Shown here: one piece after another, positions 12,890 through 33,162 of the stretch
How the letters are laid out: every line of letters starts with the position of its first letter
Position numbering within the stretch: the stretch's first letter is position 1
Origin: Campylobacteraceae bacterium
GTDB lineage: Bacteria; Campylobacterota; Campylobacteria; Campylobacterales; Sulfurovaceae
Direction: 5' to 3'
DNA: 34,766 nt
Assembly (NCBI GenBank): GCA_027081355.1
Contig: JALWKP010000152.1
Location: forward strand, 1 to 34,766
Notes under the pieces: model-generated
The model's input: only the letters and a program-made list of their open reading frames with translations
Told to the model about the DNA's origin: nothing
The model's database searches: none
Position numbers and translations under genes: made by a program

Positions 12890-12953
12890 TTGACTTAATC
12901 CTTAAAAAATTATTAAACGAATGAAAAAATGCAAAAAATTTTTAAATTTAATG

Positions 12954-13089
12954 TTGGTGATTGGTGATTGGTGATTAGTGATTAGTGATTAGGGATTAGG
13001 GATTAGGGATTAGGGAAATTTGTTTTTAGCTTTGTGCCAATAAATGGCTAACTTGCTCTTAACTTAATAGTAATGCGGGTGTCCTTAAG
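12954..13089 (+). repeat. Heptamer array plus conserved tail, copy 1
   Basis: Nine consecutive 7-base units run from 12954 to 13016, grading from TTGGTGA through TTAGTGA to TTAGGGA. They lead into AATTTGTTTTT and then a tail with GCCAATAAATGG and TTAACTTAATAGTAATG, ending near CCTTAAG at 13089. The same tail recurs at the other copies of this family. It fills most of the divergent gap between the tRNA cluster and the ATPase gene, and ends a few bases before the predicted ATPase promoter. Confidence 0.8.
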
Positions 13090-13094
13090 TTTTG

Positions 13095-23310: not shown

Positions 23311-24891
23311 ATGATAGAATATAAATTTAATACATTTTACCAGGCACTTAAGCATTATGCTTATTTACAACCTAATGTTACAGCAATAGTTATAAAAGAT
23401 AAAAAAATATCTTTTTCTAAATTGCACGATTTTACAAACAGGGTTGCTTCGTTTTTGCAAAGCAGAAATGTTAAACCGGGCGACAGAGTGGGGATATTTT
23501 TAAACAATTGCTGGGAGTATATACCTATTGTTTATGCTATTTCTAAAGTCGGAGCGGTTGCTGTTCCTATAAATACTCACTTTAAATCGCAAGAGTTAAG
23601 CAGTATAATAGAAGATGCCAATATAGATGTATTTTTTGCTAATGACAGTCTGCGTGATATTGTAGTAAAATCTATCGCTATTCATAAGTGCCCAAATGTC
23701 GCATGGATTGGAAATGATGTAGTAGGCACAAGATTCAAAAATATTTTAAAAGCAAAAGATACCTCGATAGAGATAGAGAGAAGTTTAGATGATGTTGCTT
23801 CTATTTTTTATACTTCTGGAACCACCGGCGACCCAAAAGGCGCAATTTTGACCAATAGAAATATGCTTTTTAATGCGATTTCTGCAAATAAGCTTTTTAA
23901 AACGACAAAAAAAGACAGAAGCGTGGTATTCTTACCGCTTTTCCACATATACAGTTATAATGTGGCGGCGTTTTTGCCTTTAAATTTAGGGGCATCGATA
24001 GTTATGATACCCCCAAATACACCTTTTAGCGAAATTTTAAAAAGCGTATATAAAAATAAGGTTACACTGTTTTTTGGAATTCCTAATGTTTATGATGCGA
24101 TGGCAAAGAGCAAATTGTCTTGGCGTTTTATGAAATTTAATAAAATACGGCTTTTTGTTTCTGGAGCTGTGGCAATGCCGCTAAGTGTGCATGTTGCTAT
24201 GCAAGAGAAGTTTAAAAAGATACAATTAGTAGAAGGCTATGGTTTGACCGAAGCGTCTCCGATAGTGACTATAAACCCGCCAAATGGCTCTAAAATATCT
24301 TCGGTAGGCAAACCGATACCAGGATGCGAGGTTAAAATTGTTAATGAGCGCTGTTTAGATTTAAGCAATAAAACAATTGGAGAAGTTATCGTTAAAGGCG
24401 ATAATGTTATGAAAGGTTACTTAAACAGAGAAGAAGAGACTAAAGAGGCTATTGTTAAAGGGTGGCTTTACACCGGAGATTTGGGCTATATTGATGAAGA
24501 CGGCTACTTATATATTGTAGATAGAAAAAAAGATGTAATTATTGTTAATGGTTTAAATATTTATCCAACAGAGATAGAACAGATAGTAAATCAATTCGAC
24601 GGTGTAAAAAGGTCTGCTGTTATAGCTAAAAAGGATGAATTAAGGAATGATATTCCTATCTGCTATATTGAGCTTGAAGATTCTGATAAAGAGTTAAATA
24701 TAGAAAAATTGGTTAAATATTTAAAAGGATTTTTAGCAGATTATAAAATTCCATCAGATTTTGTATATATCGAAAAAATTCCGGTAGGTCCCAGCGGAAA
24801 AATTTTAAAAGAGAAGTTAAAACAGATAATTATAGAAAAAGAGCATAAAGAAATTATTGATGAAAGCAAATATTTAAACAGTTATTATTAG
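23311..24891 (+). CDS. Acyl-CoA ligase / AMP-binding enzyme
   Basis: A 526-residue member of the ANL superfamily, which activates a carboxylic acid with ATP and transfers it to CoA. The phosphate loop is YTSGTTGDPKG (167-177). The A5 motif is EGYGLTEASP (308-317), the ribose-binding Asp is in YTGDLG (387-392), and the hinge follows DRKKDVIIVNGLNIYP. The catalytic Lys is in GPSGKILK (Lys497). Length and order match long-chain fatty acyl-CoA synthetases (FadD-like); the exact acid is unknown. It stands alone between spacers. Its TAG stop is the first TAG of a heptamer repeat that follows. Confidence 0.88.
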   Translation: MIEYKFNTFYQALKHYAYLQPNVTAIVIKDKKISFSKLHDFTNRVASFLQSRNVKPGDRVGIFLNNCWEYIPIVYAISKVGAVAVPINTHFKSQELSSIIEDANIDVFFANDSLRDIVVKSIAIHKCPNVAWIGNDVVGTRFKNILKAKDTSIEIERSLDDVASIFYTSGTTGDPKGAILTNRNMLFNAISANKLFKTTKKDRSVVFLPLFHIYSYNVAAFLPLNLGASIVMIPPNTPFSEILKSVYKNKVTLFFGIPNVYDAMAKSKLSWRFMKFNKIRLFVSGAVAMPLSVHVAMQEKFKKIQLVEGYGLTEASPIVTINPPNGSKISSVGKPIPGCEVKIVNERCLDLSNKTIGEVIVKGDNVMKGYLNREEETKEAIVKGWLYTGDLGYIDEDGYLYIVDRKKDVIIVNGLNIYPTEIEQIVNQFDGVKRSAVIAKKDELRNDIPICYIELEDSDKELNIEKLVKYLKGFLADYKIPSDFVYIEKIPVGPSGKILKEKLKQIIIEKEHKEIIDESKYLNSYY

Positions 24892-25066
24892 AAATTAGAG
24901 ATTAGAGATTAGAAATTAGAGATTAGAGAAATTTGTTTTTTGTAGTCTATATTCTGTAATACGAATGTCAAGATGGTTTTTTCTGTCGGCTTTTAGCTTT
25001 TAGCTTTTTGCCAATAAATAGAAACTTTCGTGTTTAACTTACGATGGTAATGGAGGTCTCCTTAAA
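24888..25066 (+). repeat. Heptamer array plus conserved tail, copy 2
   Basis: Six 7-base units (TTAGAAA or TTAGAGA) run from 24888 to 24929. They begin inside the last two codons of the acyl-CoA ligase, so the stop codon is part of the first unit. The following tail (24930-25066) is nearly identical for about 85 bases to the inverted copy at 29214-29325, and its last part matches the tails at 13030-13089 and 27000-27044. It fills the gap to the convergent DUF2059 gene. Confidence 0.85.
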
Positions 25067-25067
25067 A

Positions 25068-25079
25068 CGCCAAAAGGCG
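25068..25079. terminator. Short hairpin between convergent genes
   Basis: CGCC-AAAA-GGCG forms a 4-bp G+C stem with an AAAA loop. On the plus strand a T-rich tract follows a few bases later, so it may help end the acyl-CoA ligase transcript. Confidence 0.4.
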
Positions 25080-25086
25080 GCAAAAA

Positions 25087-25635
25087 TTATTTTTTTTGCT
25101 CTTTTTTATGCTCTTGCTTAGCGCTTTTTTTGGATTTTTTATTTTCTAAAGTTTTTTTAATTAAATTGTTTAACTCGTCAGAGTGTTTTGAAATTTCTTC
25201 TAAACTGAGTCTTTGAATTTGCAAACCTATTTTTGGCTGCAATTTAAGCACTTTTTGACCTATTGGAGTTTTATAAAATTCATCCAGTTTTTTTAATTCA
25301 TCAGTAGTGTAATTGGCTGCATATATTTTAGAAATTTTAGGTTTTAAAGCCTTCCAGCCGGTATATTTAACATAAAATGCTTTTATTTTACCTTCAATTT
25401 TTTTTAATTTAGGCTCTCTTGTAACCAATACTTTTACAGCAGTGTCAATCATTTTTTTATATGCATTTTCAACACCCATATCTTCTAACATTTTACCTGC
25501 TGCAACAATTGCAGAATTGTCAGCCTTTGCTGTTTTATTGCTATCTTTTGCCGCAGTTGAATTTGCTTCTCCTGCATAAATTACACAGGTTGCCAAAGTG
25601 GAAATTAGTGCAATTTTTACTGTTTTTTTTAACAT
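25087..25635 (-). CDS. Secreted DUF2059-family protein
   Basis: A 182-residue protein with a signal peptide (MLKKTVKIALISTLATCVIYAG, cut probably near residue 21). A Lys/Asn/Ser-rich linker is followed by a helical domain. Residues around 115-140 (ELKKLDEFYKTPIGQKVLKLQP) match the DUF2059 pattern of a short helix pair with a KTPIGQK core. The tail is extremely lysine-rich. DUF2059 proteins are periplasmic and of unknown function. An AAGGAG site lies upstream, with a -10 box inside an inverted repeat. Confidence 0.75.
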   Translation of the reverse strand: MLKKTVKIALISTLATCVIYAGEANSTAAKDSNKTAKADNSAIVAAGKMLEDMGVENAYKKMIDTAVKVLVTREPKLKKIEGKIKAFYVKYTGWKALKPKISKIYAANYTTDELKKLDEFYKTPIGQKVLKLQPKIGLQIQRLSLEEISKHSDELNNLIKKTLENKKSKKSAKQEHKKEQKK

Positions 25636-25656
25636 AACTTGCTGCTCCTTAATAAA

Positions 25657-25679
25657 TTTTAGGCAAATTATACCTAAAA
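25657..25679 (-). promoter_or_regulatory. -10 box within an inverted repeat upstream of the DUF2059 gene
   Basis: TTTTAGG at 25657-25663 and CCTAAAA at 25673-25679 are exact inverted repeats. Between them, on the minus strand, lies TATAAT (25672-25667). It may be an operator over the promoter, or a weak terminator of the gene at 25706 that doubles as the next promoter. Confidence 0.45.
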
Positions 25680-25705
25680 AGTATAGAAATATCTTAAATT
25701 TTTAT

Positions 25706-26629
25706 CTATTTTTTATGAATAATCCAATTTTTTTTATTATATTTTGCAATAAAAATTATACGCTGTTTTTTAGCGGTTTGGGCAATTAGCGAATAGTTAA
25801 ATTTAATTGCTTCGAGTTTCAGGGTATTTGCACCGATGATTTTGATTTTTCTGATTCTTAAATTGGGCTCTGGCAATTCTAAAAGCTTGTAAGGTTTGTT
25901 GATAATTTTAGAATTTTCGATTTTAAATGCATAAAGAGCGTTTTTCCTTGCACTGCCTGCTAACAGAAATTTGCCGTTTTTTGCGTGTAAAATATTGATT
26001 GTCAAAGCGTCAAAACCGCTTATTTTTTGCAAAATATCCTGAGTTTTTGGGTTTATATGATAAATCTCACCTTTTTGGGCTTTGTAATTGCTCTCATCAA
26101 TTGCACTAGCCCAAAGGGTGCCGTCATCGCAGTCAAAAACTACTGAAATTAAGCCGTAAGGGTTTGTAGCGTTTGGATTGACATCGTCAATAACCATCCA
26201 GCGCTCAAGTTTGCCGCTTGCACTGTCGATTTTATAAATAGCTTTTTGCAAATTAAATGTGCTTGGTTTTATGCTTATAAACGGATTTGGCGTTAAGTAG
26301 ATATTTCCGCTGCTGTCAATTGTGTAAGTGCCCAAAGCATCATAGGCTTCCCACTCTTTTTTGTGCAAAACCTTTTTAAAATCCGCTCCGTAATAAAAAG
26401 CAATGCCTTTGTAATTAATTTGACTCAAATCGATTATAGGGCGTTTTATCCCCATTTTGTTTAAAAATGCCGGGATTCTGGCACAGCTTCTTTGTTTATT
26501 AAAAGCGCCTGTGTCTAAAGTTTTAGCAGGCTCTTGATTATTTGCCGGCGTATTGCCATCTTGCAAAACAAAATACCCTATTCCTGCTAAAATAAGCAGT
26601 GCAAAAAGTATAGGCATAATTTTTTTCAT
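25706..26629 (-). CDS. Membrane-anchored propeller-like protein of unknown function
   Basis: I do not recognise a named family. The 307-residue protein begins with a membrane or signal segment (residues 4-23, MPILFALLILAGIGYFVL). Repeated segments of the form GNIYLTPNPF, AIYKIDSASGKLERW, GTLWASAID, GEIYHINPKT and GKFLLAGSARKNALYAF suggest the blades of an SMP-30 or YncE-like beta-propeller. There is no clear catalytic motif. An AAAGGAT site precedes the ATG. A large repeat-filled spacer lies upstream. Confidence 0.6.
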   Translation of the reverse strand: MKKIMPILFALLILAGIGYFVLQDGNTPANNQEPAKTLDTGAFNKQRSCARIPAFLNKMGIKRPIIDLSQINYKGIAFYYGADFKKVLHKKEWEAYDALGTYTIDSSGNIYLTPNPFISIKPSTFNLQKAIYKIDSASGKLERWMVIDDVNPNATNPYGLISVVFDCDDGTLWASAIDESNYKAQKGEIYHINPKTQDILQKISGFDALTINILHAKNGKFLLAGSARKNALYAFKIENSKIINKPYKLLELPEPNLRIRKIKIIGANTLKLEAIKFNYSLIAQTAKKQRIIFIAKYNKKNWIIHKK

Positions 26630-26752
26630 TTTTATCCTTTTGAATTATTTGCGGCACACTCTTATACGCATCAACTTAAAAATTTCATTCATATAAAAAA
26701 TATAGTATTGCGTCATTCCCGCAAAAGAGAAATGACTGGATTCCTCAAGCTT

Positions 26753-26832
26753 TAGGGCACCTCCATTGCCATTAAGTTAAGAGTAAAATATCCATTTATT
26801 GGCATAAAGCTTAAAGCCAAAAGCAGAAAGCT
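26753..26832 (-). repeat. Modular repeat tail, inverted copy
   Basis: This is the reverse complement of the conserved tail: GGCACCTCCATTGCCATTAAG, then CCATTTATTGGC, then the AAGC array and AAAGCAGAAAGC. It lies immediately next to the dRS3-like element at 26840 and points opposite to the copies at 26951 and 27191. Confidence 0.8.
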
Positions 26833-26839
26833 GTCACTG

Positions 26840-26949
26840 CGTCATTCCCGCGAAAGCGGGAATCCACAGACTTTGTAACCAAAAAATTTGGATTCCTTAC
26901 TTTTTTGGTTATTTAAACTGTGGATTCCTGGTCAAGCCAGGAATGACGA
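26840..26949. mobile_element. MITE-like element with dRS3-like hairpin ends, copy 1
   Basis: The ends are CGTCATTCC and GGAATGACG. The left end contains the 20-bp palindrome ATTCCC-N8-GGGAAT (26844-26863) and the right end a similar hairpin near 26923-26943. CCACAG and CTGTGG add further inverted bases. The length is about 110 bp with no reading frame of its own. ATTCCC-N8-GGGAAT is the consensus I recall for the neisserial dRS3 repeat. A degraded half copy lies at 26710-26742. Confidence 0.7.
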
Positions 26950-26950
26950 G

Positions 26951-27044
26951 ATGCTTTTCTCTATCGGCTTTTGGCTTTGAGCTTTAAGCTTTGTGCATTT
27001 TATGGACATAAAAACCTTAACTTAATGGCATTGGAGGTGCCCTT
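26951..27044 (+). repeat. Modular repeat tail, direct copy A
   Basis: This starts directly at the end of the MITE-like element with ATGCTTTTCTCTATCGGC, continues through the CTTTTGGCTTTGAGC array, GTGCATTTTATGGACATAAA and CCTTAACTTAATGGCATTGG, and ends in AGGTGCCCTT. The last 77 bases (26968-27044) are identical to 27201-27277. Confidence 0.85.
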
Positions 27045-27084
27045 CAATGCCAAAAGCAGAAAGCAAAAAAATTATCTGCCTCCT

Positions 27085-27190
27085 GTCATTCCCAACTTGA
27101 TTGGGAATCCACGATTTAAATTGCTTAAAAGTAAAAATAGGACTTTTGTAGCAGTTCAAACTGTGGATTCCCGCTTTCGCGGGAATGACG
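27085..27190. mobile_element. MITE-like element with dRS3-like hairpin ends, copy 2
   Basis: About 106 bp. The left hairpin is ATTCCC-N9-GGGAAT (27088-27108) and the right is ATTCCC-N8-GGGAAT (27167-27186). The outer ends are TGTCATTCC and GGAATGACG. It has the same plan as the copy at 26840 but a different interior, and is again followed directly by the modular tail. No coding capacity. Confidence 0.7.
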
Positions 27191-27278
27191 AGGTGGTTAG
27201 CTTTTGGCTTTGAGCTTTAAGCTTTGTGCATTTTATGGACATAAAAACCTTAACTTAATGGCATTGGAGGTGCCCTTT
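27191..27278 (+). repeat. Modular repeat tail, direct copy B
   Basis: The second copy of the tail begins just after the MITE-like element. From 27201 to 27277 it is identical to 26968-27044. Together with 26630-26830 this means the whole 672-bp gap between the genes at 25706 and 27302 is repeat DNA; I see no gene in it. Confidence 0.85.
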
Positions 27279-27301
27279 AGCCCTTAATCCTAACCAAATT
27301 A

Positions 27302-29176
27302 TCAATTATGAATTAAAACAAATTTCGGTCCCACAACGCAAGGCCATACTTTAGCAACCGGGTTGCCGTATTTGTCAATTGCGCTGTCTGCCCAGCAGTA
27401 TTGGTGCCCTTCTCTGTCGTCGTTGTGGATTGTAGGCACATACCAAAGCACTATATCACTGTTTTCAATCAACTCTTTATCGGCTATAAATCTCTCGGGA
27501 CCGTCTTCGTCCAGTTTGCAGCAGCTGCCAAGAGTCAGCAAATCTTCATCGCCCTCATCTTTTTTAAATTTGCTTATAAAAATATGCTCGTGGTCTCCGC
27601 GGCTTCCGTCTTTAAACTGTCCGCGGTTTGGCTCTACATAATATCCGCTGTCTGGATTTTCGATTTCGGTAAATTTATAAAGATATTTACCCTTATACAT
27701 CGGTTCTTTGGAACTAGCTTTATACTCGCCCTCTAAATCAAATTTCTGCCAAGCTCCGTTTTTATACAAAGAGAACTCTTCATGGCTGTCTAAATCTATA
27801 TCTAGGCGCATTACAGGGCGGTAAATTGCTTTATTTGAACATCCGCGCCCCATACTTACAGCTGCTGTTCTAAATGAGCCGTCTTTGTAAAAGAAAAAGC
27901 GGTTTTGATAGCGGTAATTGCAAGCCATCGGCCATTTTGGGTTTCTAAAGTCTTGAATAATACTAAAGCCCACGGTTTTATTGTTTTCTACAATATCTTT
28001 AACCTGCGGTCCGTTAAATGCCAGCACAACCGAAGTAGAAAACATAGGACACCCCATAGCATCGTTATATCCAAAGGTATATTCATTATTTTCGCCTTTA
28101 ACAAACTCAACCCGGCGCCCTTCGATGATTGTCGGCGTAGATGTATCGAGCTTATCGGCGCCGTAACCTTTGTAAGCTACGTGCCAATCGACCACTTTAA
28201 GCGATTTTGCAACTTTGTGCCCCTTAAATTTAACATCGCGAAGCTCCAGCCCGTCGGAGCCTGTTAAGTGGTAAACCATACTCCAGCCGTCTTTTTGCAG
28301 TTTTGTATCTTTTTGGCAGAAATTTTTAACAATATAGCGGTTTTCAAGCTCTCGCTCATCAATGCAGGCAGGTGTATAGGTTTTGCCAAGCCCTGCCCAT
28401 TTTGCCGCAGCAAGTTTAAGCTTTGTTAAATCTACAATTGCCCAAAGCGCCCTTTGCTTTTCGCGCTGCGGGAAGGTTGGCGCAACGCAGAGGTGGTTTT
28501 TGTTCTCGCACGGTGAATTTTCCAAATTAGTGCGCACATTGGGCATAGAAATTTCATTTGGTGTCGGTTCGTGCCCCAAATCTGCTATAATTTTCGGATT
28601 TTTCAAAGCAATAGCTTTAGCAATATTTGTTAATCTTACGCTAATATCGGGCTGCATATTCGGATAATTGTGAATTGCTATAATTTTTCTTGCATTAACA
28701 TCCACAATAGCCCTTTTAGTGCTGTTTAGCGCAAAATTGTATTTCTCTACAACATAACATACGCTCTCTTTGCACTCCTGCTTTGCTTTGCTATCTAGCA
28801 TAGAAACGGGCGCAGGCACTACACGCATAATGTCATTGTGCAAAATTTTGCCGTCTATTTTTGTATCGCTTAAAAATTTTTTGCTTTTTAACGCGACATC
28901 CTGAGCGATTTTGCCGTTGCTGTCTAATTCGCTATTATCTAAAGGCAACACGGTTTTTCCGCTTGCATAAGCCTCTTTTATATCATTTAAATATGCTTGA
29001 ACCTCTTCGATTTTTTCGTAATCGTTTCCTACATCGGGGATAATTATTTTTTTATCAGCTTTGCTGTAATGCTCGCTTTTTACCATAATTTTAGAGTGCT
29101 TTTTAAGATACAGCCCTCCAATAACCCCAAGCCCGGCAACAAATACAGCTGCCGCTATTTTATACTCTGATTTCAA
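27302..29176 (-). CDS. Anchored copper amine oxidase-like protein (diverged)
   Basis: A 624-residue protein starting at TTG with a strong AAAGGAG site. Residues 7-25 are a membrane anchor. Residues 300-335 (YHLTGSDGLELRDVKFKGHKV), 419-435 (CNYRYQNRFFFYKDGS), 457-461 (RLDID) and 574-584 (DIVLWYVPTIH) follow, in order, the catalytic domain of copper amine oxidases. Tyr421 falls where the cofactor-forming Tyr of the N-Y-D/E motif would be, but the next residue is Arg. The HxH copper ligands expected just before RLD are absent; another HxH (His529, His531) lies later. Many cysteines suggest an exported, disulfide-rich protein. A diverged oxidase or a non-catalytic relative is my best guess; the similarity is by eye. 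Confidence 0.5.
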   Translation of the reverse strand: MKSEYKIAAAVFVAGLGVIGGLYLKKHSKIMVKSEHYSKADKKIIIPDVGNDYEKIEEVQAYLNDIKEAYASGKTVLPLDNSELDSNGKIAQDVALKSKKFLSDTKIDGKILHNDIMRVVPAPVSMLDSKAKQECKESVCYVVEKYNFALNSTKRAIVDVNARKIIAIHNYPNMQPDISVRLTNIAKAIALKNPKIIADLGHEPTPNEISMPNVRTNLENSPCENKNHLCVAPTFPQREKQRALWAIVDLTKLKLAAAKWAGLGKTYTPACIDERELENRYIVKNFCQKDTKLQKDGWSMVYHLTGSDGLELRDVKFKGHKVAKSLKVVDWHVAYKGYGADKLDTSTPTIIEGRRVEFVKGENNEYTFGYNDAMGCPMFSTSVVLAFNGPQVKDIVENNKTVGFSIIQDFRNPKWPMACNYRYQNRFFFYKDGSFRTAAVSMGRGCSNKAIYRPVMRLDIDLDSHEEFSLYKNGAWQKFDLEGEYKASSKEPMYKGKYLYKFTEIENPDSGYYVEPNRGQFKDGSRGDHEHIFISKFKKDEGDEDLLTLGSCCKLDEDGPERFIADKELIENSDIVLWYVPTIHNDDREGHQYCWADSAIDKYGNPVAKVWPCVVGPKFVLIHN

Positions 29177-29213
29177 TGCAACTCCTTTACAAAATTGACA
29201 ACTCTATTGGGTG

Positions 29214-29325
29214 AAAAGCTTAAAGCTAAAAGCCAACAGAGAAAAGCATCTTGACATTCGTATTACAGAATATAGATTACAAAAAACAAATTTCTCTAAT
29301 CTCTAATCTCTCTTCTCTAAAATAG
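29214..29325 (-). repeat. Heptamer array plus conserved tail, copy 3 (inverted)
   Basis: On the minus strand it starts with TTTTAGAGAAGAGAGATTAG, whose first TAG is the stop codon of the TraB-family gene. It then matches the tail of the copy at 24888 for about 85 bases with only a handful of differences. It fills most of the gap before the 624-residue gene. Confidence 0.85.
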
Positions 29326-30216
29326 CAGCTTCTTAACTTTAAACCCCTCTTTTTTTAAATAATCCAAAACATTCCTTTTGCTTAAAAAGTGCATCGCTCC
29401 AAATGCGAAAAGATACTTTTTATTCGGATTTTTGCTTACAATTTCTGCAATTCTTTTTGCCATACGGATATTTCTTTTATATAAAATTGTATCTAAATAG
29501 CGCTTTTTTAAATCTTGACTTACCGTAGAATTTTGCATAGAATTCACAAAGTGCTCTATTACACACTTGCCGTCGCCTTTTGCATAGCAGTTTAAAAACT
29601 TTTCTATCATTTTAGGATTTTTTTCGTATTGAATTAAACCATCGCGCAGTATTTCGATGCTCTCTTTGCGGCTAAAGCTGTCGAAAATTGCGATTTGCTC
29701 TTCTACCTTTTCTACCCCTCCAACCTTTTTGCCCCGAGCTTTTGCGTATTCGTAAATTTGCTTATCCAAAGGCTTTATATAGCGGTATTTTAATTGATAT
29801 TTAAGCAATCCGACATTTAATGCAACTGCCCATATCTTAAATTTGTCAAAAGCCTTGAGGTTTAAATACGGCGCTTCTTTCTTTAGCTGCATTTGCAATT
29901 TATCGTAAACATCTTTTGGCAAAATCTCTTGTAAAGTTTTATTGTCATCGCGCAAGGAAGCTTGCATTATAGCCATTGTTGCAAACATATTTAGAGGAAT
30001 TTCGGTATAAACCTCATCTACGCTGTCTATTATCTTTTTTACCCTTTGAAATTCCGCATTTGCAACAGGGTGCGGCAGGTGCATTGTGCCAAAAAGATAA
30101 ATTGTGCTTTTGTTTTTTACTGCTTTCCACAAAAAGGGCTTAACATTAACTGCCGTGTAAGCATTTCTGCCAAAAGCAAGCCCAAAAAAGAGAATTAAAA
30201 CGGTTAAAATTCTCAT
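29317..30216 (-). CDS. TraB/GumN family protein
   Basis: A 299-residue exported protein. The first 16 residues are a signal peptide. The two family motifs are both present: GTMHLPH (residues 43-49) and GAMHFLS near residue 273. These Gly-x-x-His motifs define the TraB/PrgY/GumN fold, related to metal-dependent hydrolases. The biological substrate is unknown. The ATG overlaps the stop of the M15 peptidase gene by four bases, so they form an operon. The TAG stop lies in the first unit of a repeat array. Confidence 0.8.
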   Translation of the reverse strand: MRILTVLILFFGLAFGRNAYTAVNVKPFLWKAVKNKSTIYLFGTMHLPHPVANAEFQRVKKIIDSVDEVYTEIPLNMFATMAIMQASLRDDNKTLQEILPKDVYDKLQMQLKKEAPYLNLKAFDKFKIWAVALNVGLLKYQLKYRYIKPLDKQIYEYAKARGKKVGGVEKVEEQIAIFDSFSRKESIEILRDGLIQYEKNPKMIEKFLNCYAKGDGKCVIEHFVNSMQNSTVSQDLKKRYLDTILYKRNIRMAKRIAEIVSKNPNKKYLFAFGAMHFLSKRNVLDYLKKEGFKVKKLLF

Positions 30217-33002: not shown

Positions 33003-33149
33003 TGGCACTCATTTCCATTGTTAAGTTAAAGATTTTATATCCATAAAATGTATAAAGCTCAAAGCAAAAAAGTTGTTTGCCTCCCCTCACCCATCCGGAA
33101 TACGAAATGCGGATTACAAATATTCTAATCTCTAATCTCTCTTCTCTAA
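33003..33149 (-). repeat. Heptamer array plus conserved tail, copy 4 (inverted)
   Basis: Read on the minus strand it starts with TTAGAGAAGAGAGATTAG, identical over 28 bases to the start of the copy at 29320. It continues with a different middle (33075-33120) and ends in the shared tail (GCTTTGAGCTTTATACATTTTATGG, then CTTTAACTTAAC). It fills most of the gap between the LOG gene and the Hsp20 operon. Confidence 0.75.
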
Positions 33150-33162
33150 AAAAATTGAAGAT

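Follow-up and report, generated by a model that had tools for sequence, protein, structure and literature searches.

Elements of the IS4 subgroup are 1400–1650 bp long, have ends that follow the consensus -AATR--------WTW---- and are bordered by direct repeats of 10–13 bp, and a YREK motif is present in IS4-family transposases (PMC2266710; De Palmenaer 2008). The element described here resembles this subgroup, including IS4 of E. coli, in its end consensus, in its 11-bp duplication and in having related full ISs with YREK. Unlike these ISs, it has no transposase, and its inverted arms are much longer. MIC231 and other IS4-family mobile insertion cassettes are also non-autonomous and have IS4-family ends. 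MIC elements carry passenger genes, whereas the present element has none.

An internal tandem repeat, an intergenic location and the presence of multiple copies are shared with BrickBuilt, a MITE of Porphyromonas gingivalis, but that element has a 23-nt unit and other ends, whereas the present one has a 7-nt unit and a replaceable core (PMC4596501). CGTC- and GTAG-tagged palindromes (PMC3733652) resemble one of its cores (type 3, CGTCATTCCCGC...) and some of its targets, but, unlike them, the complete element is bounded by TIRs and target duplications. Heptamer arrays such as TAACTGA are likewise intergenic 7-bp direct repeats, found in sulfur-oxidising bacteria (PMC4679880). Those arrays mostly lie just upstream of start codons and were described without a MITE, whereas the arrays reported here are part of a MITE and lie near stop codons. 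Heptamer arrays are generally described as intergenic repeats that stand alone; the present case shows how they can be moved about a genome within a transposable element.

We consider it about 90% probable that the repeat studied here forms the core of a MITE, a non-autonomous DNA transposon, belonging to the IS4 subgroup. It represents a new family of a kind already known, present in an uncultured genus of Campylobacterales, and no description of it was found in the open-access literature searched. The distinctive feature of the family is a replaceable core, which often holds a tandem 7-base repeat.

Copies of the element in the window

The window, i.e., the whole 34,766-nt stretch of DNA that was analysed, is contig 152 of a fragmented MAG (1.86 Mb in 181 contigs, 95.6% complete). 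A repeat search of the window identified inverted arms at 24902-25008 (copy A) and 29214-29320 (copy B), 107 nt long, 93% complementary and separated by 4205 nt; a chance match is excluded by the length of 107 nt. A first-pass annotation had reported two nearly identical inverted copies here, each at the 3' end of a gene, and both statements agree with the repeat search and the ORF limits. Copy A abuts the stop of ORF 23311-24891 (plus strand) and also borders the 3' end of 25087-25635 (minus strand). Copy B overlaps the stop of 29317-30216 (minus strand), a TraB/PrgY-like gene whose last codons (AAG CTG CTA TTT TAG) come from the repeat. The extent of about 110 bp proposed earlier was too small: the repeat is real, but these limits enclose just the core of a larger MITE, of which A and B are two truncated copies. 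The features recognised in the window are as follows.

About 12946-13092, plus strand: relic copy with an expanded heptamer array (GTGATTA/GGGATTA) and a right arm, TIR at 13058-13075 (repeats, TRF, TIR pattern)
24888-24929, plus strand: heptamer array of copy A, ATTAGAG-type units (TRF period 7, 91% matches)
24930-24987, plus strand: core type 1 of copy A, AATTTGTTTTTTGTAGTCTATATTCTGTAATACGAATGTCAAGATGG..., matched nearly over its full length at about 15 other places in the genome
24988-25052, plus strand: right arm of copy A (GCTTTTA units, TTTGCCAATAAATAG...) with the degraded TIR TTTAACTTACGATGGTAATG at its end; no left arm (sequence, arm matches)
26753-26763, unstranded: TAGGGCACCTC, left flank of the complete copy, fitting the target consensus; it forms an inverted and not a direct repeat with the right flank (flank comparison)
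26764-27033, unstranded: complete MITE of 270 bp; its core is of type 3a (CGTCATTCCCGCGAAAGCGGGAATCC...) and its TIRs occupy 26764-26781 and 27016-27033; copies of 96-98% identity in contigs C15 and C2
27034-27044, unstranded: GAGGTGCCCTT, left copy of the direct repeat bordering the next element (sequence)
27045-27266, unstranded: second MITE; its core is of type 3b, its left TIR is truncated (CAATGCC followed by AAAAGC) and its right TIR lies at 27249-27266 (sequence, arm and TIR matches)
27267-27277, unstranded: GAGGTGCCCTT again, the right-hand member of the 11-bp direct repeat (sequence)
29214-29320, minus strand: core type 1 and heptamer array of copy B, both outer arms absent (inverted repeat)
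About 33021-33152, minus strand: relic copy, an arm and core type 2 with heptamers (repeats, heptamer analysis)

Copy A runs to about 25052, where the degraded TIR (25033-25052) is accompanied by the target-like flank GAGGTCTCCTT. The whole MITE at 26764-27033 and the left-truncated one at 27045-27266, which have a different core, both lie between copies A and B. The inverted instead of direct flanks of the whole MITE perhaps reflect a rearrangement with its tandem neighbour, which itself lies within direct copies of GAGGTGCCCTT.

At the 5' side of copy A, the heptamer array determines where the product of the AMP-binding enzyme gene 23311-24891 ends, as this gene has its stop codon in the first TAG of the array (24888-24891).

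Copy number and distribution

In the genome to which the window belongs, the repeat as BLAST query gave 61 matches, about 15 of them near full length, and the arm gave 46. The 18-bp TIR pattern occurred at 81 sites, compared to one for a reversed-pattern control. After merging matches by hand, the element or fragments of it were found in about 60 places on 46 contigs. The first-pass annotation had suggested a dispersed, recently spread element, to be given up if a genome-wide search showed only these two copies; the many further copies bear out the dispersal. Recent spread applies to the family, which includes whole 270-bp copies with 96-98% identity, but not to the two truncated copies.

The proximity of copies A and B, which are among the most alike pairs, could also be explained by a local inverted duplication within the 4.4-kb stretch. 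This explanation was rejected in view of the genome-wide copies and has a practically negligible probability: similar copies occur on more than 10 other contigs, including one (C16) whose score against copy A equals that of copy B, and TIRs and 11-bp duplications are present in complete copies.

The MITE is also multi-copy in the congeners G004, G005 and G008. When the exact arm pattern was compared with named GTDB contigs, matches were obtained in two MAGs only, both labelled Campylobacteraceae bacterium. The family accounts for a large share of the repeats in this uncultured genus.

Anatomy of the complete element

Complete copies measure 195-290 bp, with one of 428 bp that carries a further insert, and they start with CAATGCCATTAAGTTAAG and finish with CTTAACTTAATGGCATTG. 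The two inverted arms are long, about 70-90 bp, and both open with an 18-bp TIR; they continue inward with TTTTATGGATATAAAATCC and AAGCTTAAAGC units and enclose a variable core. There is no transposase gene and the short ORFs are incidental. With TIRs at both ends, a target-site duplication, a short length, multiple copies and no transposase, the element has the properties by which a MITE is recognised.

While the arms are constant, at least three core types were found. Type 1, the core seen in the first-pass annotation, consists of heptamers and ATTCTGTAATACGAATGTC. Type 2 consists of heptamers and ATTCCGTATTCCGAATGGATGAC and is apparently related to type 1, though diverged from it. Type 3 is composed of CGTCATTCCCGCGAAAGCGGGAATCC palindromes. 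The heptamer stretches of types 1 and 2 vary by whole 7-bp steps only, with lengths of 14, 21, 28 or 35 (0 mod 7) in 11 of 11 cases and, in a second length class, of 12, 19 or 26 (5 mod 7) in 10 of 10. Such whole-unit variation is the pattern expected from replication slippage, which we infer to have occurred.

Long arrays of GATTAGA-type heptamers were also present at C100:57608-57733 and C139:6929-7054 of the same genome (G000), with no core match in the same search; therefore heptamer arrays may also occur apart from the core.

Copy B is a core without arms, a form that simple transposition does not yield, and several copies, A among them, have only one of the two arms. Together with the occurrence of at least three differing cores within the same arms, this would suit a core (heptamers and the TATTCTGTAATACGAATGTC segment) that is an independent mobile or recombining unit, with the IS4-type arms as its commonest carrier. 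However, core-only copies are rare, at least one arm is kept in most core copies, and neither a duplication nor constant ends were seen around the core, which makes this reading unlikely. On the preferred reading of an IS4-subgroup MITE, a modular organisation can be proposed tentatively, and with considerable doubt: the constant arms might serve as a chassis in which the core is swapped among unrelated palindromic or tandem-repeat modules, allowing one transposase to spread many intergenic hairpins, and the core might at times be copied without arms, as in copy B.

Target duplications and empty sites

For 23 TIR pairs, flank identity was highest at 11 bp (0.64, against 0.23-0.41 at 7-10 and 12-14 bp). 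The number of matching flank bases was 162, whereas shuffled pairings averaged 100 and none of the 10,000 attained this value; the set includes two spurious pairings, which weaken the result. Seventeen duplications, some from copies in relatives, gave the consensus WRGGGCACCTC with invariant GG at positions 3-4, a consensus that is somewhat sharpened because the reading direction of the sites was picked by G content and several sites were turned by eye.

Sites lacking the element were found in related genomes. In G005 and G008, the genes on both sides of copy B (27302-29176 and 29317-30216) abut or overlap, and in G004 they come close to doing so. The gap at 26629-27302, which here contains two MITEs (26751-27277), is short in seven congeners. 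Being between-species comparisons, these empty sites show absence of the element and not the exact base of insertion. For copy A, no empty site was found among the syntenic relatives.

Gene context and RNA folding

Classified places comprised 25 convergent, 25 tandem and two divergent gaps, and none was within an ORF. Gaps of at least 60 bp without a TIR, taken as a baseline from a 205-kb sample, included 16 convergent and 16 divergent ones. Most copies thus lie where genes end, and divergent gaps are avoided. The genes were called simply as longest ORFs, so that the counts are approximate, and one such error was seen, in which the apparent ORF 26971-27213 inside the MITEs upset one gene-context count; the direction of the skew is safe because the skew is large.

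Whole copies are predicted to form strong RNA hairpins (z -13.9, -9.7 and -4.8), and an effect of the MITE on the ends of neighbouring transcripts is possible. The same hairpin scores, and the 25:2 ratio of convergent to divergent gaps against a 16:16 baseline, might point to a conserved functional RNA or bidirectional terminator that is held at 3' ends by selection, with copying playing a minor role. The long inverted arms of any such element fold strongly, however, and the gene-end bias is also expected from selection against promoter insertions. In addition, congeners lack insertions at the same sites. We regard a conserved RNA as very unlikely; identity with an Rfam RNA was rejected, as only tRNAs in the window matched above the gathering score. 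Recognition of the family as an IS4-subgroup MITE keeps its cores from being mistaken for regulatory motifs.

The intergenic location, 3'-end bias and hairpins are also features of REP/BIME-type palindromes of the GTAG and CGTC classes, whose spread depends on a RAYT tyrosine transposase. There is a resemblance between core type 3 and a CGTC-tagged palindrome, some target sites are like GTAG-type hairpins, and Sulfurovum sp. NBC37-1 is listed as CGTC-positive (PMC3733652). Against such an origin, which was rejected and to which we attach hardly any weight, stand the 11-bp target duplication and IS4-type TIRs, which are features of DDE transposition, and the size of the unit, 200-290 bp with long TIR arms versus palindromes of 20-40 bp.

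IS4-subgroup assignment and candidate transposase partners

The end sequence CAATGCCATTAAGTTAAG fits the IS4-subgroup consensus -AATR--------WTW---- (PMC2266710, Table 1), and the 11-bp duplication falls within the 10-13 bp of the subgroup. The end of E. coli IS4 is AATGCCGATCAGTTAAGG, with 14 of the 18 terminal bases the same as in the MITE. In other Campylobacterales, IS4-family transposases that score above the cut-off of NF033592 (NCBIfam) were found, and YREK was present in all seven putative partner transposases. The full ISs of these organisms are about 1.5-1.6 kb long (1511-1610 bp for the partners, as taken from TIR positions), with TIRs that are identical to those of the MITE at 15-17 of 18 positions. 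An intact IS of 1511 bp is present on plasmid pSulSP of the cultured Sulfurospirillum sp. 'SP', with TIRs that match at 16 of 18 positions at both ends and a perfect 11-bp duplication, AGCCTCCCCCT; its IS4-family transposase is WP_316723176.1. The repeats can thereby be tied to a definable IS4-subgroup transposase on a plasmid of a cultured relative. The sequence common to the MITE and the full ISs is the TIR of about 18-20 bp alone, not the long arm.

A search of the genome that contains the window revealed no DDE_Tnp_1 transposase, and we therefore infer mobilisation in trans; absence from this genome is weak evidence because the MAG is fragmented into 181 contigs. Neither was an autonomous IS with the same ends found there, a feature that does not define a MITE but is needed for activity here, and no IS with these exact arms was found in the genus.

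On the basis of this anatomy, the IS4-family DDE transposase of a full IS would act in trans on the TIRs of the MITE. Insertion would take place at a GC-rich 11-bp site, WRGGGCACCTC, with staggered cuts producing the duplication. The cores would diversify by replication slippage at the heptamers and, probably, by taking up other palindromic repeats through exchange or insertion. After insertion, copies would decay to fragments like copies A and B. Selection or target choice may leave copies mostly downstream of genes, and a transcribed copy would fold as a long hairpin.

Nested and adjoining elements

A complete 1.49-kb IS4-family IS encoding a 455-aa transposase lies within a MITE copy in congener G005 (L087:857-2348). 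It has the TIR CAATGCCAATGAAATAAG and the duplication CGGAAGTGGG. Since MITE arms surround it, this IS was considered as the autonomous parent and rejected, as it is a separate IS with a related but different TIR that lies inside the MITE. A small element with the TIR CAATGCCAATGAATTAAG is nested in a MITE core of type 3 (L074:1505-2060), and therefore at least two related TIR types have been active in the genus. Sequences of the GAGACCACTGCACAATAGTTA type, which resemble an IS end, adjoin MITE copies (flanks of the L007, L009 and L020 matches).

A further MITE-like family, about 268 bp in length and with the inverted ends AGGGCACCTCTAATAATAGGT...ACCTATTATTAGAGGTGCCCT, occurs in G000 at C24:14190-14457 (L154), C61:2-269 (L155) and C142:1087-1353 (L162). 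Its tip contains the target motif of the IS4-type MITE, and in C142 an IS4-type MITE is located exactly at the tip.
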